From a virus, in IMG/VR virus record IMGVR_UViG_3300021364_000084, positions 1-34,315 of that record: a DNA stretch of 34,315 nt; one strand, given 5' to 3'. The translations under genes were made by a program, and so were the position numbers. Position 1 is the first letter of the stretch; every line of letters starts with the position of its first letter. The notes beneath the pieces were generated by a model, which was given only the letters and a program-made list of their open reading frames with translations, was not told where the DNA came from and ran no database searches. This document shows, piece by piece, positions 3,177-26,276 of this stretch.

Positions 3177-3310
3177 ATTCTCTCCTCTCCTTGTGTTTAT
3201 TGTTATACATATGTATAACAAAAATTGAAGTGGGTTAATGAGGAGTTGACCTGAATGGGCGGGGGGGCTGGGTGCTGCCTCCTCGCCTTTTCTTTTTTCG
3301 GGAGAAAAGC
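3177..3310. promoter_or_regulatory. Divergent promoter region with 22-bp perfect palindrome
   Basis: A perfect palindrome at 3200-3221 has arms TTGTTATACAT and ATGTATAACAA with no spacer. It is AT-rich in a GC-moderate genome and carries a TATAAC -10-like hexamer on each strand (3214-3219 rightward; complement of 3202-3207 leftward). A TTGTGT at 3191-3196 is 17 bp from the rightward hexamer. A dimeric repressor here could control both the leftward 90-aa gene and the start of the long rightward unit. The ribbon-helix-helix protein encoded next and the HTH protein at 677 are candidate ligands. Confidence 0.55.
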
Positions 3311-3508
3311 ATGAGCGGCAAAAGTCAAACGATAGCCTTGAGGGTGACCCCCAATGAACACAGCTTCGTTGCCAATGAGGCCAAGAAATTCGGCTGCACA
3401 AGCTCAGCGCTTATCAGAGCACTCATCAAGATCCACTTCGACTCACGAAAGAATCAAGGCGATTTAGCACAGCGCGTTGAGCGCTATCTGGAGGCACCAC
3501 ATGACTAG
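3311..3508 (+). CDS. Ribbon-helix-helix (CopG/Arc-like) DNA-binding protein
   Basis: A 65-aa protein with a beta strand (QTIALRVTPNE) followed by two helices (HSFVANEAKKFGCTSSALIR, ALIKIHFDSR), the shape of the ribbon-helix-helix fold, which dimerises and binds palindromic operators. The start at 3311 follows GGGAGA; an upstream in-frame start at 3272 adds a non-conserved Pro/Arg/Phe-rich leader and is not preferred. It overlaps the SSB start by 8 bp. The palindrome at 3200-3221, 90 bp upstream, is a natural target, so autoregulation is likely (inference). Confidence 0.7.
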   Translation: MSGKSQTIALRVTPNEHSFVANEAKKFGCTSSALIRALIKIHFDSRKNQGDLAQRVERYLEAPHD

Positions 3509-3884
3509 TAGTATTAACAAGATCTGTCTCATTGGGAATCTGGGCAAAGATGCCGAGATGCGACAAACGACCGGCGGCGCTTCATATTGCCACTTCTCGA
3601 TGGCGACATCAGAGCGGCGCAAACAAGGAGAGCAGTGGATTGAGGAGACCGAGTGGCACACAATCAAGGTCTGGGGCAAGTCGGCCCCAAGGGCAGCAGA
3701 GCTGAAGAAGGGTGGCTCAGTTTACGTTGAGGGTCGATTGTCCTCCTATGAAGTCAATGGTCAACGGCGGTGGGAGGTCATCGCTTATTGCTGGAAAAAT
3801 CTGACAGCCAAGAGTGATCACCTCCTCCCTCCTGATCCCCCTCAGCGAAGCGCTTGGAGTGCCACACCAGGAGGATGGTCATGA
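3501..3884 (+). CDS. ssb: Single-stranded DNA-binding protein
   Basis: A 127-aa OB-fold SSB. Typical features are the N-terminal NKICLIGNLGKDAEMR strand, the TEWHTIKVWGKSAPRAAEL segment and GGSVYVEGRLSSYEVNG. The start at 3501 is preferred over 3477 because homologues begin a few residues before the first strand. The C-terminus is short and ends SAWSATPGGWS; the acidic DDDIPF-type tip that recruits host repair and replication proteins is absent. It overlaps the RHH gene by 8 bp and the next gene by ATGA. It should act with the RecT-like protein and the replication proteins. Confidence 0.9.
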   Translation: MTSSINKICLIGNLGKDAEMRQTTGGASYCHFSMATSERRKQGEQWIEETEWHTIKVWGKSAPRAAELKKGGSVYVEGRLSSYEVNGQRRWEVIAYCWKNLTAKSDHLLPPDPPQRSAWSATPGGWS

Positions 3885-4099
3885 GTGAACGTTATGAGCG
3901 CAAGGTACTGGAGCGCCTCGAGGAGCTCTTGGTGCTTAATGCCAGAGATCATGGTGACTACCTAAGTGAGCAAAGCCGGGATCTGCTCGATAGAATCAGA
4001 GAAGTCCTCAATGCTGAGGAGGCCATATATAAAAAAGAAAATGTTACCCACAACGCGCGCGCGCGCGCGCAAGGGGGCCAAGATGGCGATCAAGGCTGA
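3881..4099 (+). CDS. 72-aa helical protein, unknown function
   Basis: A small charged helical protein (MSERYERKVLERLEELLVLN) translated after AGGAGG and overlapping the SSB stop by ATGA. The C-terminal 18 residues are encoded across a run of 17 alternating C and G bases (4054-4070), giving the odd NARARAQGGQDGDQG tail. The gene overlaps the terminase small subunit start by 17 bp. No family is recognised; the position suggests a replication or packaging accessory. Confidence 0.6.
   Translation: MSERYERKVLERLEELLVLNARDHGDYLSEQSRDLLDRIREVLNAEEAIYKKENVTHNARARAQGGQDGDQG
4054..4070. repeat. (CG) dinucleotide run
   Basis: Seventeen alternating C/G bases near the 3' end of the 72-aa gene and 13 bp before the small terminase start. 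Alternating CG can adopt Z-DNA and is prone to slippage, so the C-terminal frame of the 72-aa protein could vary between genomes. Confidence 0.8.
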
Positions 4100-4680: not shown

Positions 4681-4940
4681 TGGTTCAAATTTGCCTAATG
4701 CGTGAGTGGTCGATGCTTCATCACTTATTTAGTGCTACCTATGAGATTGAGGGTGATTGGGTCAAGGTCGCTGAGGAGAGTCAAGATCATGGTTGGCAGC
4801 GCTCCACAGTGGACATCATCAACGCTGAGGTTGGCGCGACTGTTCACAAGCACACCACTGATAAGGACGGGCGCAAAAACACCACAATCTGGCGCGTGAC
4901 TGAGGAAGGCCTTAAGCTATGGGAGAACCAAGAGAGCTAA
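4677..4940 (+). CDS. 87-aa protein with winged-helix-like pattern
   Basis: It starts at GTG 4677 or ATG 4680, overlapping the upstream stop. The sequence has helices and a beta-hairpin pattern ending TTIWRVTEEGLKLW, reminiscent of a small winged-helix DNA-binding domain. It overlaps the large terminase start by 22 bp. It may be another packaging-site binding factor. No firm family assignment. Confidence 0.55.
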   Translation: MMVQICLMREWSMLHHLFSATYEIEGDWVKVAEESQDHGWQRSTVDIINAEVGATVHKHTTDKDGRKNTTIWRVTEEGLKLWENQES

Positions 4941-6307
4941 GCCTCAACCCACTCCAGCAAGACCTCATCGCGAGGATCAGAAGACAAGATAGAATCATCG
5001 CGGCTCGATGTGGTTGGGGAGCTGGCAAGACTTCAGCGCTAGTATTCAGCATCCTCTTTATTTCCAAGTGGCGCGCCGGGAGCTCCAGCTTACTGGTGAC
5101 CGACACCAACCCCAGATACAACTCTGTGTTGATGCCTGAGATGGAAAAATGGTTGTCGCCATTGGGCTGGACCTATAACCACTCTCTGAGGCAGTGGCTA
5201 GACCCAACCACAGGCTCAACGGTGTGGTGTCGCTCTTACTTTCGACCCGGCACAAGGGACGCAACCCATAACCCGCTTGAGGGTTTGAATATCACCTCTG
5301 GCTGCTGTCTCATCGACGAGTGCCAGACGCTCACCGCTGAGGTGGCGCATAAAGCGCTTGGTCGTCTGCGCTCAGGTCCATCTCCCATCATGATCCTTGT
5401 GGGCCTTCCTGTGGCTGACGCTTGGTGGTGTGCTATGGCTGAGGGCGCTGGGCTATCACCTCTGCTCTTCACCTCATACGTCAACAAGGCCCATCTCTCT
5501 GACGAGTGGTTTGAGGCTACTGAGCTGCTCCCTAAAGAAGAGCGTGAAGCCATGGTGATGAATAAGCCGCGTCCACCAAGCGGCTTGGTCTATTCAGAGT
5601 TTGACGTTGATACGATGGTGATTGATGATTGGGAGTACTCGCCAGAGATGAGCGCGAGGATTGCTATTGACTGGGGATTCAGAAAGCCATCAGTGCTCAT
5701 CCTCGCTCATGATGAACGGTTAGGCGCTGATGTGATCTGTGCTGAGCTGAACCCCAATGAGGTCACCATTGAGCAGCTAGCCTTAATGATCCTCGCTATT
5801 GCTTGGCCGCGCTCGATTCAGGACCAAGCGCCAGCGCCTCGCATATGGCTTGATGAGGGTTGCGCTGACAAAGCCGGCAAAGCTCGCAACGACCAAACCG
5901 GCGCTTCAGCATTTCGAGCAATGCGAGCAGCTCCCCCCAAAGGTTTAGGGATCCCGTTGAGGTCAACCACTGATCCAATCAGAACCGATATTCTCAACGG
6001 GGTGCAGAAGCTCAAGCGAGCATTCACGCGGCGTCAATATCTCATCACTCGTGAAGTCTGGGACGCTGGCGAACGCTCACCGGGCAACTCAATCAGGAAG
6101 GCGCTGCTCTCTTATCAGTGGGAGCGAACCAAAGAACAGCCTAAGAAGGATGGGCGAGAAGACCCACTTGACGCGCTCAGATATGATTGCATCATGTGGC
6201 GATGGGCAGATGATTCCACAGTGGACCGGCGCAAGTATCAACCCAGAGCCTCACCGCGATCAAGAAAGGTCAGGGTTGGAGGCGCTAGAGCAAGAGGGAA
6301 CTTTTAA
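4919..6307 (+). CDS. terL: Terminase large subunit
   Basis: A 462-aa packaging motor. The ATPase domain has Walker A CGWGAGKTS (31-39), Walker B CCLIDE (129-134, catalytic E134) and a coupling-motif-like MILVGLPV (158-165). The RNase H-like nuclease domain has acidic residues D251 (IAIDWGF), D312 (WLDEG) and D416/D419 (EDPLDALRYD). Length and motif order are complete. The start is supported by GAGGAAGG upstream. The adjacent TTG-started cyclase gene follows with no gap. Headful or cos packaging cannot be decided from sequence alone. Confidence 0.93.
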   Translation: MGEPRELSLNPLQQDLIARIRRQDRIIAARCGWGAGKTSALVFSILFISKWRAGSSSLLVTDTNPRYNSVLMPEMEKWLSPLGWTYNHSLRQWLDPTTGSTVWCRSYFRPGTRDATHNPLEGLNITSGCCLIDECQTLTAEVAHKALGRLRSGPSPIMILVGLPVADAWWCAMAEGAGLSPLLFTSYVNKAHLSDEWFEATELLPKEEREAMVMNKPRPPSGLVYSEFDVDTMVIDDWEYSPEMSARIAIDWGFRKPSVLILAHDERLGADVICAELNPNEVTIEQLALMILAIAWPRSIQDQAPAPRIWLDEGCADKAGKARNDQTGASAFRAMRAAPPKGLGIPLRSTTDPIRTDILNGVQKLKRAFTRRQYLITREVWDAGERSPGNSIRKALLSYQWERTKEQPKKDGREDPLDALRYDCIMWRWADDSTVDRRKYQPRASPRSRKVRVGGARARGNF

Positions 6308-7084
6308 TTGCTGAGAGAGTCAGAGCAATATAAAGAGCGGTCGCTCACAATTGTGCTTTTAGACTTGGTCAACTCAACTGGCTTTGTTGAGACCGCTGGC
6401 GCTCAACGTGCAGCGCGATGGTTTCAGTATCACGACCGGCTGACGCGCTCCCTTCTCTATCGCTTCAGCGGCCGAGAGATCGACAGGTCAGACGGGTTCC
6501 TCTTTACGTTTGATCTAGCTCATGAGGCGCTCAGCTTCGCGCTTTATTACCAGCAGACGATTCCCCAGAAGATCCACATTAAAGCAAGAATTGGGATTCA
6601 TTATGGCTGTGTTGTTGAGGTGCATCAAATTGAGCTTTTGGTATTGGTGGGAGCGAAGCCCATTGAGGTGGAGGGCTTGTCAAAGAATATCGCGGCGAGG
6701 ATCATGAGCTTGGCTCAACCCGGTCAGGTCTTGCTGAGCGCGCCAGCTTTTGAGCGCGTCAAGAACAGGTCCAACGGGATGACCCCAAAAGGGACGCGCT
6801 ATGCTTGCGTGGGGCTTTATCGTCTACAGGGAGTGAAAGAGCCTCAGGTTATTTATGCCGCCGGCTTACATATCAAAACACTTCAGCCACCACCATCAAC
6901 CGCCAAGGTCAAGAGGTTGGGCGGCCCAAGAAAGGTCAGGTCTCGAATGAGGCACAAATCATTTTTAGAGTGGTCTGAATTTATACTCCTCTTTTTATTT
7001 TGGTTAGCATTGGGCTATCTGGCCGTGCATATGTGGCCATACATTAAATTTAAATTCTGGGAGTGGTGGAATGAACAACGATGA
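6308..7084 (+). CDS. Class III nucleotidyl cyclase with C-terminal membrane anchor
   Basis: A 258-aa protein. Residues 12-187 follow the class III adenylyl/guanylyl cyclase homology domain: LTIVLLDLVNSTGF (metal D19), GREIDRSDGFLFTF (metal D62), KARIGIHYG (92-100), GLSKNIAARI (transition-state N127 and R131) and YRLQGVKEPQVIY. The usual substrate-selecting Lys and Asp positions appear replaced (a DRSD segment before D62; E120 seven residues before N127), so the base used is uncertain. A basic linker (195-220) leads to one membrane helix at about 225-243, then an aromatic tail, giving a tail-anchored cytosolic enzyme. It starts with TTG right after the terminase stop; AGAGGG is upstream. It overlaps the two-TM gene by 14 bp. 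Cyclases in this location are not part of standard phage head modules. Confidence 0.82.
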   Translation: MLRESEQYKERSLTIVLLDLVNSTGFVETAGAQRAARWFQYHDRLTRSLLYRFSGREIDRSDGFLFTFDLAHEALSFALYYQQTIPQKIHIKARIGIHYGCVVEVHQIELLVLVGAKPIEVEGLSKNIAARIMSLAQPGQVLLSAPAFERVKNRSNGMTPKGTRYACVGLYRLQGVKEPQVIYAAGLHIKTLQPPPSTAKVKRLGGPRKVRSRMRHKSFLEWSEFILLFLFWLALGYLAVHMWPYIKFKFWEWWNEQR

Positions 7085-7514
7085 GGAGAAGAAGACAAAG
7101 CGCGGCTGGTGGTTCTCTGTAATCTTTATGGGTTTGGTGATGGGCCTGATTATCTTTTTGGCTCGCGTGGAAATAATTGAAAAAAATAGAGATGTGCTCA
7201 TTGGAATCTTGGGGATGATTACGGGTTCAATCTCCTCAATGCTCGCTATTGCCAGCGGTCGAGATCCAGCTGAGGTTGATGAGCTCAGGGGAGAGGTGGG
7301 CAAGCTTAACGCTGACAGGGCGGCGCTCATCGCTCGCCTCAGAGATGCTAATATTCAGCTTCAACTGAAGAATGATCACTTGCTGGAATTACAGCTGGCG
7401 ATGATCAAGGCGCTCACCAAGCTAGAGGTGAATTTTGTTTCAGAAGAGGTTGAGCTTCATGAGCAGGTCAAGGAGTGGTTACCTTCTGTTGAAAAAAAAG
7501 AAGAAAACGGTTAG
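7071..7514 (+). CDS. Two-TM coiled-coil membrane protein
   Basis: A 147-aa protein with a charged N-terminus, TM1 at about 13-31 (WWFSVIFMGLVMGLIIFLA), a short basic/acidic turn (EIIEKNRD), TM2 at about 42-62 (VLIGILGMITGSISSMLAIA), then a coiled coil (68-115) and an acidic, Lys-rich tail. N- and C-termini are predicted cytosolic. The start overlaps the cyclase gene by 14 bp, so the two are probably translated together. The hairpin resembles small holin-like or exclusion proteins. It is too short for a classical cyclic-nucleotide-binding domain. It could be an effector, partner or scaffold of the cyclase; a second holin is another reading. Confidence 0.7.
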   Translation: MNNDEEKKTKRGWWFSVIFMGLVMGLIIFLARVEIIEKNRDVLIGILGMITGSISSMLAIASGRDPAEVDELRGEVGKLNADRAALIARLRDANIQLQLKNDHLLELQLAMIKALTKLEVNFVSEEVELHEQVKEWLPSVEKKEENG

Positions 7515-7540: not shown

Positions 7541-8935
7541 ATGAATGAGCGTACAGCACCCAAACACTTAAGAGCGTCAACGCCTCGCTTTGGCGTTAAG
7601 GGAATCACAGGGACTCAGCTGAATGCCGGCACCTTGTCGGTAGAGTCTAACCCAGAGCTCACCGGCCTCAATTGGGTTCAAGCTGCTGAGGAGATGTTAA
7701 GGACTGATCCCATAGTGAGGCGCTCTTGGCACATGTTGAGGCAGACCTTACTGAGCGCTACTTGGAGATTCACTCCAGGGATTGAGGGTGACTTGGTGAG
7801 TGAAGAGCTGGCCCGGTACGCTAATGAAGCGTTTGGCCTCGACGGTCACTCGGGACAAATGGAGAGCTCATGGGAAGAACAACTGAGCTATCTTTTTGAA
7901 TTTGTCCCTCTTGGTTATCGCTACGCTGAAGAGGTCTACAAGGTTGGGCCTGACTCAACGGGAAAAGTTAAGGTGTGGCTGAGTCATTACGCTGACCGGG
8001 AACCTAGCGCTCACAGTCGTTGGCTGAGTCGCGACTCTCAACACCTCGATGGGGTTCTTCAGAATATGGTTGGATCAGGGAAACAGCCAGAGCCCATCCC
8101 AGCCAACAAGCTCCTCCTGCTCACGCTCAACCGTACCGGCTCAAACTTCGAGGGCGTTGGAATGTTGCGCCCTGTGTGGTGGTGGTGGCGAACTAAGCAG
8201 CGCGTCTCAAACCTCATGTGTGTAGGGCTCGACCGTTGGGCCGTTCCGACTCCCAAGGTAGTGGTTGACCGCTCGACCGCTGAACAAATCGGGCTCACTG
8301 ATGGTGATATTGACGCGATGATCAACGACGCTGAAGCTCAGGCTCAAGCGTTCATCTCATCAGAGCAGAGCTATCTTGTTGAGAACTCAGCGGTAAAGTT
8401 TGAGACTTACGCCGCTCAGCCTAATCTTTACGCTGATGGCCCAATCAATATAATTTCCAAATGTGACAGCCAGATTGCAGCCGCTTTCCTCGCTCAGTTC
8501 GCTGATTTGGGCCAGACTGAAACCGGCGCTCGATCTGTGGGAGAAATCCACCTCTCAGTATTTCGGCGCGCTGCAATTAACCTTTGTGACTTGGTGGCTG
8601 CTCAGGTGAGCGGCCCTGACCGTAGAGGAGCCGGCACGATTGGCCGGCTGATTCGCTGGAACTATGGAGCGGTTGACCCTTCTAAACTTCCTCGCCTCAC
8701 TCACACTGGCCTTGACACTGATGAGCTTGGAAGCTCGCTTAATGCTCTGCCTCAACTGGTGACAGCGGGGCTCATCACTCCAGACGATGAGCTAGAGCGA
8801 GTCATCAGGGCCAAGATTGGTGCAGGGGATTTGCCTGAAGATGCTCAGCGTAGCGCTGTTTCTCGAATCCCAACTTATAGCGGTGGCGTGTCTGCTCTAG
8901 CTGAGACCCTGATCAAGAGGCGGCGCAATGGTTAA
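7541..8935 (+). CDS. Portal protein (Mu gp29 / DUF935-like)
   Basis: A 464-aa portal candidate. The segment MLRTDPIVRRSWHMLRQTLL followed by SATWRFTPG is typical of the Mu gp29-like portal group, as is the aromatic-rich middle (RPVWWWWRTKQRVSNLM). It would form the dodecameric ring at the head vertex through which DNA passes. A strong AAGGAG lies before the ATG. It overlaps the protease gene by 8 bp. Length and position after terminase support the call. Confidence 0.85.
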   Translation: MNERTAPKHLRASTPRFGVKGITGTQLNAGTLSVESNPELTGLNWVQAAEEMLRTDPIVRRSWHMLRQTLLSATWRFTPGIEGDLVSEELARYANEAFGLDGHSGQMESSWEEQLSYLFEFVPLGYRYAEEVYKVGPDSTGKVKVWLSHYADREPSAHSRWLSRDSQHLDGVLQNMVGSGKQPEPIPANKLLLLTLNRTGSNFEGVGMLRPVWWWWRTKQRVSNLMCVGLDRWAVPTPKVVVDRSTAEQIGLTDGDIDAMINDAEAQAQAFISSEQSYLVENSAVKFETYAAQPNLYADGPINIISKCDSQIAAAFLAQFADLGQTETGARSVGEIHLSVFRRAAINLCDLVAAQVSGPDRRGAGTIGRLIRWNYGAVDPSKLPRLTHTGLDTDELGSSLNALPQLVTAGLITPDDELERVIRAKIGAGDLPEDAQRSAVSRIPTYSGGVSALAETLIKRRRNG

Positions 8936-10895
8936 GGCGATCAAGAAGAAGAAGAAGAGGACCGAAGCCCAAACACCGGCCAAGCCTCAAGAGCGCATCA
9001 GAGGAAGCAAGGCCAATCCAGAAGGGTCAGCCAGCGGCTCACGTGGTGGCATCGAGATCGGAGAGCGAGCGCAGAAGGCGCTTGAGAACATGAGGGACAG
9101 CCACAATGAACGATACACGAACGCTCATCGCCAAGTTAATATGGGTCAGCTTAAAGCTGTGTATCGTCGCGGCGCTGGCGCTTTCTCTGTTAGTCACCGG
9201 CCTGGTATGACTCGAAATGGTTGGGCGCTGGCTCGCGTTCGAGCGTTCCTTAAACTGGTGGGTAAGGGTGAGCGCAAGAAAGCTTATACCGGTGACCTTG
9301 ATCTCTTGCCTGATGGTCACCCATCCAAGCCAGCAGCTGAGAAGAAGGCTGAGCTGAATCTGAAGCGATACGATCACATTGATTTCACTCCACCCAAAGG
9401 AGCGCAAGAGGCTGGAAGGCGAGCGCTTGAGGTGAGAGAGAGCAAGCCCATCTCCCAGCGAGGTATGACCTCAGTGGGCATCTCTCGAGCTCGCGACCTC
9501 TCCAACGGTCGAAAGATGAGCCCCGATACAGTACGCCGAATGCTCGCCTATTTCACACGTCACCAATCTGACAAGCAGGGCTCAACTTGGAGCGATCAAG
9601 GGAAGGGCTGGCAAGCTTGGCACGGTTGGGGCGGTGACGCTGGCTTTGCTTGGGCCCGAAAGGTAGTTAACCAAATGGACGCCGCCGATAAAAAAGCGCA
9701 AGCGCTCAGGGCATACTCTGAAGCGCTATCAACCCAACACACTTATGATATCCCTGATGGCCTCACAATTGGCCGGCCTTTCAAGACGCTGTCTCTGGGC
9801 CAAGTCAGCTCTCGAATGAGCGGTCAGGATATCGGCAAAGAGATCACTATGGAGATGCTCAGTGAAATGGTCAGAGTTTTCAACGCTCGCCGCGCTGAAG
9901 ATCCTGTGGTGATTGATTGGCAGCACGCCACATCTCCTTATCAAGACGGTCCACCAGCTCCACCAGAGAGCGGCAACGCTCTGGGGCTCATCGCTGATCT
10001 TGAGCTGAGAGAAGATGGCCTTTACGCAATTCCCGCTTACAATGAGCGCGGCTTGAATGTCGTTGCTGAAGCCGGTGGAGTCTTGTGGAGCTCCCCTGAG
10101 TTTCTCGCCGGGGATGTATTTGACAGAGCTGGAGGAAGTCACATTGGAACCGCTCAGTTATTGGCGGTCACCCTTACACCAAGGCCAGCTCAATCACACT
10201 CTAAAATTGACAGAGTCACCCTCAATGAAAGGTTTGCAGACATGGATGACCTCGCCAACATGGACCTCGATGATCTTCGCGCCATGCTCATCTCAAAAGA
10301 TGAGATGGTCAAAAGACTCGAGGCCCAAATCAAAGAAATGAAGAAGGACGCTGAGTCTAAGATCTCTTCTGACGCGCTCGAGGAGCAAGACAAGGACAAA
10401 GAAGAGAAGATGAGCGAAGACGAAGACAAAGAGAAGAAAATGGCTGAAGACAAAAAAGATCACTACAAGATGAGTGAGGCTGTGAGCCCTGAGCTGCTCT
10501 CTGAGTTCAACGCTCTTCGTGAGAAAAATGAGCAAATGGCTAAACGCCTTGAGACCATCGAGCGAGAAAAGCGCTCGATCGAAAAGCGCGAAGCGGTTAG
10601 CGCTCTTCTTCGTGATGGTCGCATCGAGCCAAGTCAAGAAAGCGTTGCCGGCAAAGCTTGGGAGCTCAGAGAAATTCAGCCCGAGTTCTGGCAGATGTTC
10701 AGCGAGCGTCCAGCTGGCGCGGCTGTACCTCTTCAAGAGGTTGGTCATGGTGCAAGCGGCCGAGAGATCAACCGCCAATCACTCGACGCAGAAATCAAAA
10801 AGCTAGCCGCTGAGAAGAGCATTTCTTACAGCGAGGCGCTTAACCAATTCCGTACTTCAAACCCTGACTTCTATACCAAAGCATTTGGAGGCTGA
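8928..10895 (+). CDS. Fused head protein: N-terminal phage domain, I-like protease, scaffold
   Basis: A 655-aa protein with at least three parts. Residues 1-50 are a Lys/Arg-rich leader. Residues about 60-250 form a distinct domain (LKAVYRRGAGAFSVSH ... MSPDTVRRMLAYFTRHQSDK ... WGGDAGFAWARKVV) that I recognise as a recurring phage head-region domain of unknown function. Residues about 275-430 resemble the Mu gpI-type head maturation protease (PVVIDWQHAT with D330 and H333; EAGGVLWSSPEF; LLAVTLTPRP). Residues 439-655 are highly charged coiled coil typical of scaffold and end DFYTKAFGG. The protease should cleave scaffold and itself after prohead assembly. A nested start at 10242 may make scaffold alone. 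Confidence 0.8.
   Translation: MVKAIKKKKKRTEAQTPAKPQERIRGSKANPEGSASGSRGGIEIGERAQKALENMRDSHNERYTNAHRQVNMGQLKAVYRRGAGAFSVSHRPGMTRNGWALARVRAFLKLVGKGERKKAYTGDLDLLPDGHPSKPAAEKKAELNLKRYDHIDFTPPKGAQEAGRRALEVRESKPISQRGMTSVGISRARDLSNGRKMSPDTVRRMLAYFTRHQSDKQGSTWSDQGKGWQAWHGWGGDAGFAWARKVVNQMDAADKKAQALRAYSEALSTQHTYDIPDGLTIGRPFKTLSLGQVSSRMSGQDIGKEITMEMLSEMVRVFNARRAEDPVVIDWQHATSPYQDGPPAPPESGNALGLIADLELREDGLYAIPAYNERGLNVVAEAGGVLWSSPEFLAGDVFDRAGGSHIGTAQLLAVTLTPRPAQSHSKIDRVTLNERFADMDDLANMDLDDLRAMLISKDEMVKRLEAQIKEMKKDAESKISSDALEEQDKDKEEKMSEDEDKEKKMAEDKKDHYKMSEAVSPELLSEFNALREKNEQMAKRLETIEREKRSIEKREAVSALLRDGRIEPSQESVAGKAWELREIQPEFWQMFSERPAGAAVPLQEVGHGASGREINRQSLDAEIKKLAAEKSISYSEALNQFRTSNPDFYTKAFGG
10242..10895 (+). 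CDS. Possible nested scaffold start within protease gene
   Basis: An in-frame ATG (codon 439 of the fusion) is preceded by AAAGG at 10228-10232 with 9-bp spacing. It falls exactly between the protease and the coiled-coil region, and would give a 217-aa free scaffold, as lambda C/Nu3 and Mu I/Z do. The evidence is position plus a ribosome site; expression is not shown. Confidence 0.4.
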   Translation: MDDLANMDLDDLRAMLISKDEMVKRLEAQIKEMKKDAESKISSDALEEQDKDKEEKMSEDEDKEKKMAEDKKDHYKMSEAVSPELLSEFNALREKNEQMAKRLETIEREKRSIEKREAVSALLRDGRIEPSQESVAGKAWELREIQPEFWQMFSERPAGAAVPLQEVGHGASGREINRQSLDAEIKKLAAEKSISYSEALNQFRTSNPDFYTKAFGG

Positions 10896-25401: not shown

Positions 25402-26061
25402 ATGCCAACAAAGACCCAACTTGAAGACCGCGTGACAGCGCTCGAAAACGAAGTCAGACGACTTCAAAGAGCTGAGCGCCAAGCAGCGATGAACCTGCCA
25501 CAGATCAAAGAGCGCGAGCTTGATAACCCTGAGGCGAGCTGGAGCCCTGCCGCTCAGCAAGCCTTAGGCCGCGCTCTCTGTGAGTGGGATCAAGTCATCA
25601 AAGATCCCGATGCCGAGATTGACCGATATATCAGGTCAAGAGAAGGCCTTGGTTGGAGCTGGTCTGATGAGTACACAAAGAACGGCCAATTTGCTTGGTG
25701 TGGAGCGTTCGCCGCGTTCTGCTGGACTCAGGTTAAATTCCCGATTCGTCAAAAGATCTTCCCTAGCTGCTACCGGCTCTATGAGCAATGGAGCAACACG
25801 GCGCGACGAATCAAAGACCCCAGCAACATGCTCCCGGGTGACATCGTGGTTATCAGCACAGTCAACGGCGCTAAGTGGGGTGATCACATCACTCTGTGTC
25901 ATGAAGCCCCAAACGGCGGCGGCTCTTATGAGGCGCTCGAGGGCAACGCGAAAGGCACACTGGGCGATGGTTCCACAGGGGAGGGAGTCATCAAGCAGAC
26001 TCGACCGCTCAGCCGAGTCATGTTCGTTTATCGTGTCCTCGAGGAGGATCTAGACGTATGA
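25402..26061 (+). CDS. Endolysin, CHAP/NlpC-P60-like cysteine amidase
   Basis: A 219-aa cell-wall hydrolase. An N-terminal coiled coil (LEDRVTALENEVRRLQRAER) precedes the catalytic domain. The nucleophile is likely C100 (FAWCGAFAAFCW), the base H162 (GDHITLCHE) and the third residue E180/N182 (ALEGNAKG), with LPGDIVVI between, matching the phage TIGR02594/CHAP-type pattern. No signal peptide is visible, so it depends on the holin for export. The coiled coil in front of the enzyme is unusual and might mark a virion-associated lysin instead. It overlaps the holin candidate by ATGA. Confidence 0.85.
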   Translation: MPTKTQLEDRVTALENEVRRLQRAERQAAMNLPQIKERELDNPEASWSPAAQQALGRALCEWDQVIKDPDAEIDRYIRSREGLGWSWSDEYTKNGQFAWCGAFAAFCWTQVKFPIRQKIFPSCYRLYEQWSNTARRIKDPSNMLPGDIVVISTVNGAKWGDHITLCHEAPNGGGSYEALEGNAKGTLGDGSTGEGVIKQTRPLSRVMFVYRVLEEDLDV

Positions 26062-26276
26062 GCGAGAAGAAGAAGAAACGGACGCTGGTCCAAATGTTTG
26101 GCGGTCGCAAGTCTATGGCCTTTTATGCTTGCCTCGCTTGTATGATGACCCTCGCATTAATGGACAGAGCACAGGTGCACATCCTGAGCTTGATTGATAC
26201 ACTGTTCTTAGTCTATGCCGGAGCGAATGTCGCAAGGGCGAGCGTTACGAAAACTGATGATAAAGAGGAGTCTTAA
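26058..26276 (+). CDS. Two-TM holin candidate
   Basis: A 72-aa protein with a Lys-rich N-terminus (MSEKKKKRTLVQMFGGRKS), TM1 at about 19-35, a short polar turn (MDRAQ), TM2 at about 40-58 (HILSLIDTLFLVYAGANVA) and a charged tail. Size, topology and overlap with the endolysin gene fit a class II holin, which permeabilises the inner membrane at lysis. Confidence 0.65.
   Translation: MSEKKKKRTLVQMFGGRKSMAFYACLACMMTLALMDRAQVHILSLIDTLFLVYAGANVARASVTKTDDKEES

Follow-up and report, generated by a model that had tools for sequence, protein, structure and literature searches.

The window, that is the whole stretch of DNA analysed here, comprises the 34,315 nucleotides of the IMG/VR virus record IMGVR_UViG_3300021364_000084. 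Between a terminase large subunit gene (terL) and a Mu-type portal gene there lie two genes, of which one is predicted to encode a class III nucleotidyl cyclase (CYC) and the other a small protein with two putative membrane helices (TM2), just in the order terL, cyclase, two-helix protein and portal that the first-pass annotation had given. The features are as follows.

4919–6307, plus strand: terminase large subunit, terL (phrog_5653, E 2.2e-8)
6292–6299, plus strand: purine-rich ribosome-binding-like sequence AAGAGGGA before the TTG of CYC, read from the sequence
6308–7084, plus strand: class III nucleotidyl cyclase, CYC, 258 aa, TTG start
6308–6874, plus strand: predicted catalytic domain of CYC, residues 1–189 (VIA-align to 1ybt_B: model residues 8–194, Z 24.1, rmsd 1.6, 171 aligned)
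6362–6364, plus strand: D19, metal-binding Asp 1 (132/132 ungapped phage relatives, 4 gapped)
6491–6493, plus strand: D62, metal-binding Asp 2, within the REIDRSDGF hairpin (133/133 ungapped, 3 gapped)
6686–6688, plus strand: N127, transition-state Asn (135/136 phage relatives; 0/14 cellular TIGR04510-like sequences)
6698–6700, plus strand: R131, transition-state Arg (136/136 phage relatives)
6962–7030, plus strand: predicted C-terminal membrane helix of CYC, residues 219–241 (model helix and hydropathy)
7071–7514, plus strand: TM2, the constant partner of CYC, 147 aa, two predicted membrane helices and a long helix (14-base overlap with CYC)
7113–7169, plus strand: first predicted membrane helix of TM2, residues 15–33 (hydropathy; model helix 3–32)
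7194–7250, plus strand: second predicted membrane helix of TM2, Gly/Ser-rich, residues 42–60 (hydropathy; model helix 40–61)
7266–7421, plus strand: long helix of TM2, probable coiled coil, residues 66–117 (model and relatives)
7541–8935, plus strand: Mu-type portal protein (PF06074, 87 bits)
25402–26061, plus strand: endolysin (phrog_21825 endolysin, E 4.8e-10)
26058–26276, plus strand: small membrane protein of 72 aa, by position and size alone a holin candidate (one hydrophobic segment, 40–58)

The TTG start of CYC stands immediately 3' of the TAA of terL and in the frame of terL. A low expression had been read from this start codon, which is a weak inference; the close relatives L005–L007, L010 and L011 begin this gene with ATG, and TTG is therefore little informative on expression. 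At 8928–10895 the window also encodes a head protein of 655 aa with matches to a Mu-like protease, DUF5824 and phrog_2859, which is apparently a fusion or polyprotein.

As for the cyclase itself, the Pfam model Guanylate_cyc gives CYC 22.7 bits, slightly above its cut-off of 21.9, and among PDB sequences Rv1900c matches best (E 5e-10). The structure prediction proposed earlier as a check gave an AF2 model with a pLDDT of 93.2 (input alignment of 52 sequences), which has a class III catalytic fold and matches Rv1900c (1ybt_B) with a Foldseek E of 5.3e-14. In this model D19 ends the first strand, D62 lies in the hairpin of strands 2 and 3, and N127 together with R131 is found in the helix 124–135. 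The membrane-anchored class III cyclase with a single C-terminal membrane helix, as claimed for the window, agrees with the model as well as with the hydropathy, which peaks at 1.58 in residues 220–238 (threshold chosen 1.5). Among 136 CYC relatives, C-terminal hydrophobic segments above this threshold number one in 91 sequences, two in 19 and none in 26; a putative C-terminal anchor is thus common, being seen in part of the set. Because a stretch rich in Lys and Arg precedes the helix 219–241, the catalytic domain should be cytosolic, as judged from charge.

The four core residues D19, D62, N127 and R131 are all present as the first-pass annotation had stated, and in the alignment they fall on those positions that serve metal binding and the transition state in class III active sites (roles in part after the available text of PMC4215837). 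Their conservation was counted in a single alignment with 136 further phage CYC sequences, where the lone exception at N127 is L200 with an Ala instead. The canonical base selectors are, in the same available text, a K/D pair in adenylyl cyclases and a Glu at the K place in guanylyl cyclases (PMC4215837), and CYC has neither the one nor the other: in place of the segment with the K there is DRSD, in a hairpin that lacks one residue relative to Rv1900c and Ma1120, with D59 at the K place, while E120 stands where D is usual. In fact these altered positions, already pointed out in the earlier reading, prove to be conserved, with D59 kept in 133/133 ungapped relatives and E120 in 133 of 136. Even so cAMP may be the product, since Rv1900c, an adenylyl cyclase by its PDB titles, also has a residue other than Lys at the K place. 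Where dS is unsaturated, dN/dS of CYC is 0.08–0.12, which places the ORF above chance, to be compared with 0.03–0.13 for TM2, 0.05–0.07 for terL and 0.04–0.07 for the portal; for CYC of L012 dS is saturated and no ratio is used. The conserved residues together with the low dN/dS argue for an active enzyme. Altogether, predicted fold and residues confirm the ORF at 6308–7084 as a class III nucleotidyl cyclase, and its description as a catalytically competent-looking phage cyclase is well supported by sequence and model.

The partner protein TM2 has near its N-terminus a basic stretch, followed by the two predicted membrane helices, so placed that by charge both termini would be inside, and its long helix bears the invariant residues D82, R83, R89, L90, R91 and D92. 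The TM2 model is of low confidence (pLDDT 73, pTM 0.29) and a search of viral structures with it returned no match better than E 4.4, for which reasons no fold is claimed. A recognisable nucleotide-binding domain was not found in TM2. Membership in the SLATT two-helix effectors was considered and rejected, with 17.4 bits against a cut-off of 26.5 in Pfam and 14.0 against 35 in NCBIfam. A SLATT model does match 44 of 46 TM2 members at E 0.1 (best 3.4e-5), but an AbrB model also matches 45 of 46, and hhalign gives a probability of 0.35% against three SLATT-matching proteins, one of which is itself below the cut-off. In PADLOC, which may hold no PycTM model, the TM2 of the window has no match up to E 10.

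What the first-pass annotation listed simply as a gene of two membrane segments is a constant partner of the cyclase, and this partnership it had missed. Searches of viral contigs with CYC, TM2 and the portal yielded 270 loci, 153 of them distinct; 80 loci were kept per relative search out of 196, 418, 277 and 218 relatives, among the rest of which unpaired copies are possible. By profile searches, CYC and TM2 are both present in 142 of the 153 distinct loci, and TM2 goes with CYC in all 142 that are uncut next to it, with a gap below 400 bases in 141. Eight loci have a single gene (four TM2 only, four CYC only), each time with this gene at the contig end, and the three with neither (L136, L142 and L150) were all fetched by the portal and have at most 601 bases before it. 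As the portal fetch ignores the cyclase, it provides an independent test of the pairing: the pair lies inside the terL–portal interval in 65/65 portal-fetched loci with both ends, a count that is not deduplicated, that includes contigs known from other searches, and that leaves uncounted 15 of the 80 portal-fetched loci, which have no terL in the available DNA. A mixed set of distinct loci gives the same picture (82/82). For the portal relatives seen, CYC and TM2 therefore count as core genes and not as an optional extra. The distance matrices of CYC and TM2 correlate with r 0.70 (0/999 permutations as high), which relatedness alone can produce. The carriers are uncultivated, mostly aquatic phages.

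Besides the pair, other genes occur in this interval. For example, between terL and CYC in L007 (6904–8026) and L017 (5550–6566), genes resembling thyX, dCMP deaminase and cytosine methylase can be seen by eye, while in L288 a gene resembling an adenine methyltransferase (3244–3957, by eye) stands instead between CYC and TM2. The terL–cyclase interval hence resembles an insertion site.

The placing of the cyclase inside a packaging and head operon, as first annotated, is true at this site, which is however merely one site of a mobile pair. In 12 of 118 distinct loci the terL and portal of the window are missing from the available flanks, and a search of the whole records for eight of these and for L235 and L241 gave 0/10 matches to either, while the positive control G008 was matched at 74 and 79%; four of the ten records are shorter than 16 kb, and records in this 11-record search may be fragments. 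Others are the contigs L169 (65 kb), L191 (97 kb), L204 (34 kb), L235 (66 kb) and L241 (162 kb), and in L191 the order is swapped, TM2 coming before CYC. Since the pair occurs in these ten records without the terL or portal of the window, it is, by gene content, a portable two-gene cassette and not a packaging component. The GC content of the loci ranges over 29–59%, from which the carrier phages are probably of different hosts. Moreover, in L204, L235 and L241 compared with the nearest backbone phage, TM2 is 75–77% identical and CYC 41–42%, a difference that an independent function of TM2 would lead one to expect.

Genes of nucleotide metabolism also lie near the pair: thyX is found within 2.5 kb in 56 of the 86 loci with room, and dCMP deaminase in 20 of 86. 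Near the swapped pair of L191 there are genes that by eye resemble adenylosuccinate synthetase and adenylosuccinate lyase (597–1664 and 1657–2757), possibly a modified-purine (Z-genome) pathway. A 2OG-Fe(II) oxygenase (AlkB-like) also lies near the pair in two low-GC phages, at 6320–6940 of L191 (by Pfam) and at 5934–6548 of L204 (by eye).

Regarding lifestyle, neither a tyrosine (PF00589) nor a serine (PF00239) integrase was matched in 18 phage records, some of which may be fragments, which suggests lytic phages; the carriers are thus apparently lytic, as far as gene content tells. The cNMP-binding domain PF00027 is likewise matched in none of these 18 records, of which some may be fragments, and a receptor of the product would then be TM2 or a host protein.

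The nearest named family to CYC is the cellular NCBIfam family TIGR04510 (mod_pep_cyc), a putative peptide modification system cyclase whose 814-position model includes a large C-terminal part. CYC matches it in the cyclase domain only (157 bits, E 6e-46, positions 7–204 of 814), which falls short of the whole-protein score above 400 bits that marks family members. TIGR04510-like cellular proteins and phage CYC have REIDRSDG-like and GAKPxE motifs in common at 33–42% identity, whereas the phage proteins are of 258 aa and paired with TM2, and they keep the catalytic Asn at a place where 14/14 cellular sequences have Pro (12) or Ala (2). The cellular set consists of the full TIGR04510 members L214–L217 and of lower-scoring Rubrivivax and Rhizobacter proteins, with L210 (His at the Asn place) as outgroup. 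In L214 a hydrophobic stretch and then a long C-terminal part come after the cyclase domain (by eye), a layout by which phage CYC resembles the front end of a TIGR04510 protein. In the tree, which is rooted on a single and very long outgroup branch, the cellular set lies on one side of a branch with 96/86 and the phage set on another with 93/90 (not starred). Within the phage part, the labels of other backbones and of Mu-type portals need three changes, of which starred branches force only one. In the genome_contigs collection, CYC matches come only from Rubrivivax and Rhizobacter MAGs (8 loci from 98 pattern stretches). In the MAG Rubrivivax MAG-214 (L084, L085, L088, L089 twice and L090) there are six or more large cyclase genes of this kind, each with Pro for the catalytic Asn. 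TM2 was matched neither in 299 genomes from the phylum to which the Rubrivivax MAG belongs nor in four Rubrivivax/Rhizobacter genomes, by a query that is without positive control in either set. The closest solved fold, Rv1900c (LipJ) of Mycobacterium tuberculosis, agrees with CYC in its non-Lys residue at the K place, yet differs by an identity of about 29%, by fusion to a hydrolase domain (by its NCBIfam name) and by a His at the Asn place.

From these results we tentatively favour, with slightly more doubt than conviction, that CYC and TM2 form a phage-borne membrane signalling cassette in which TM2 is the effector of the CYC product or of CYC itself, and which serves the lytic programme of the phage rather than host defence. 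The basis is shown, as far as models and sequence comparison reach, by the predicted fold of CYC, the constraint on its residues, its C-terminal hydrophobic helix and its joint inheritance with TM2 across phage records without a detectable terL or portal in common. In such a mechanism CYC would form a dimer at the inner membrane of the host, on the cytosolic side, and this dimer would make a 3',5'-cyclic nucleotide which is perhaps not cAMP. TM2, as a hairpin with both termini inside and a cytosolic coiled coil, would act as the effector, and the CYC product, or CYC itself, would bring about a rearrangement of TM2 in the membrane. The switch might then serve membrane takeover or the timing of lysis. 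A pair that belongs to the core of its phage group, and is not scattered there, fits the infection programme of the phage itself better than a defence against rivals. The nearness of lysis genes to the pair in several of the other backbones, given below with the holin reading, is also in favour of the cassette, as is the lack of integrase matches in the 18 records. Against the signalling cassette count the 26 of 136 CYC relatives that have no anchor over the threshold, and L200, which lacks N127, as well as TM2 itself, in which neither a nucleotide-binding domain nor a confident fold is recognised; against a lysis role count the distance of the endolysin in the phage group of the window and the greater frequency of thyX than of lysis genes among the neighbours. 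More specifically, it is possible but rather unlikely that we are dealing with a virus-owned second-messenger circuit, in which a phage-made and possibly non-canonical cyclic nucleotide acts on TM2 as receptor-effector and sets the timing or exclusivity of infection in a large group of uncultivated lytic phages.

An alternative that we regard as unlikely, albeit worth weighing, is that TM2 regulates CYC or serves as its scaffold, and that the receptor of the cyclic nucleotide is a host protein, for example one of the CRP family, so that the infected cell is reprogrammed. With no cNMP-binding domain in the 18 phage records, a receptor in the host would fit, both proteins look membrane-bound so that the long helix of TM2 could approach the cyclase, and as CYC is much like the front of TIGR04510 without the large C-terminal part, TM2 could stand in for the lost regulator. 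However, the unequal divergence (TM2 at 75–77%, CYC at 41–42%) is unlike a tight co-adaptation of TM2 to CYC, and the probably different hosts implied by the GC range would all need a matching receptor.

Less probable again is a Pycsar-like weapon against rival phages, in which CYC would make the signal and TM2 would be the membrane effector, and which would work by superinfection exclusion or abortive shut-off. Exclusion genes are usually patchy, but the pair is found in every one of the 65 portal-fetched loci described above. Moreover CYC does not match the PycC family as such, PADLOC gives no match for TM2, and without an integrase match in the 18 records a prophage defence role is unlikely. 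What speaks for such a weapon is the presence of the pair in several backbones, usual for such cassettes, and a two-gene logic as in Pycsar (Hou 2024, PMC11224242, in its available part).

It is quite improbable that TM2 is a phage holin or antiholin through which CYC times lysis, although its two helices with both termini inside by charge, its place among the late genes of the window and the lysis genes near the pair in several other-backbone loci would all suit it. In one lineage (L065, L070, L072, L078, L082, L083 and L173) the pair lies 64–347 bases from an endolysin gene on the opposite strand, 7/7, and this endolysin is 38–44% identical to that of the window. In L191, L204, L235 and L241 a transglycosylase-like gene is 1.3–2.2 kb from the pair, with a Pfam SLT match in L235 and L241 only. 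In the 86 loci with room, lysis genes near the pair (endolysin in 3, SLT-type in 4) are rarer than thyX with its 56, and in the available flank of L192 no lysis gene was seen by eye. In the phage group of the window the endolysin is about 18 kb from the pair and adjoined by the small membrane protein of 72 aa, for which no informative family match was obtained; with both elsewhere in the window, TM2 is probably not an ordinary holin, and a lysis role in this phage group is not favoured. A further conserved protein of 86–93 aa with hydrophobic stretches (LPLKSKKFLAYLIAD...-like), itself a holin candidate, is encoded less than 4 kb from the pair (L204 5416–5682, L241 5939–6199, L235 6206–6466 and L200 3464–3745) and has no PHROG match in the three tested. 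The small membrane proteins by the endolysin of the window and in L204, L235, L241 and L200 are at least as good holin candidates as TM2, and no holin family is among the listed Pfam and PHROG matches for TM2.

Lastly, it is very improbable that CYC is a catalytically dead or structural head-assembly protein: its base-selecting positions are non-canonical, its gene stands between terL and portal in this group and L200 has N127A, but its four catalytic residues are nearly invariant while cellular relatives are without the Asn, and the pair is also present in records without this terL or portal.

Turning back to the signalling cassette, we compared it with what is known from other viruses and replicons. 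Among GenBank phages (50,697 records), CYC has no credible relative, and terL (E 1e-5) and TM2 (E 1) have no match. The only match for CYC (27.6%) is MT838110, set aside since it is a bacterial-looking cyclase-STAND protein on a contig that looks cellular by eye. This record, MT838110.1 (L210), is an UNVERIFIED 'Bacteriophage sp.' entry from human faeces, with a thioredoxin-reductase-like gene and by eye the look of a bacterial chromosome. On plasmids, 112 records, mostly rhizobial, match CYC, all below 60% identity, and at 25–31% among the matches listed these were put down to general class III cyclases. In BFVD, eight proteins match the CYC fold at E ≤ 0.001, mostly from giant viruses and one from an uncultured Caudovirales phage; examples from phages are A0A6J5RWB7 (Foldseek E 3e-8) and A0A6J5KRX6 (E 3e-3), both from uncultured Caudovirales. 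These viral proteins share a class III cyclase-like fold with CYC, but are only 10–20% identical in the best ten matches, and mostly longer. In uncultivated marine pelagiphages a predicted adenylate cyclase has been reported within a curli/T8SS cluster (PMC9599517), which differs from the present pair in having a histidine kinase and FecR and, in the available text, no mention of a partner with two membrane helices. In open-access papers, with most subscription papers outside the scope, we recognised no description of the CYC–TM2 pair. Viral proteins with this fold are therefore already known, and what we regard as new here is a module of cyclase and membrane protein that is owned by the virus.

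Bacteria are known to fight phages by way of a nucleotide cyclase that signals to an effector, as in Pycsar and CBASS. The first-pass annotation had linked the cyclase to Pycsar, and as membership this link is not supported. The PADLOC PycC model gives 20.7 bits (E 5.4e-5) for the CYC of the window and about 21 bits at most, each of three PycC models matches just 4 or 5 of 52 CYC relatives at E 0.1, and in two of four cellular cyclases PycC models score 12–16 bits. The hallmark of PycC is an N-terminal helix (Hou 2024, PMC11224242, available part), missing in the CYC model, whose strand 1 begins at residue 6. The pyrimidine-selecting residues given there (PMC11224242) are F100/R142/Q144 in EaPycC and F60/K104/F109 in AnPycC, and CYC, compared with these published residues rather than with aligned sequences, has instead L17 and, before D62, D59/R60. 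Thus where EaPycC and AnPycC have a Phe two residues before the first metal Asp, phage CYC has the non-aromatic L17, the residues in 132 ungapped relatives being Leu in 129, Phe in 2 and Ile in 1. PycC chains are not among the best 50 PDB structure matches listed, which is uninformative either way. Owing to the weak scores, the missing helix and the differing selectors, we do not file CYC as PycC.

To sum up, the cyclase and its membrane-protein neighbour suggest that these phages may have their own chemical switch for signalling within the host. A two-gene arrangement comparable to the bacterial one is here core in one phage group, is also found in other backbones, and is without a credible counterpart among the annotated phages searched. 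CYC–TM2 is a small and directly testable pair for the question whether viruses run their own second messenger, and phage cyclases with the catalytic Asn beside cellular relatives without it offer a natural contrast. In both Pycsar, where PycC as a maker of cCMP or cUMP is paired with PycTM or PycTIR, and the phage pair a cyclase gene of class III fold is joined by a gene for a membrane protein; unlike Pycsar, the phage pair is virus-borne, core in its phage group, and carried by phages that are apparently lytic.
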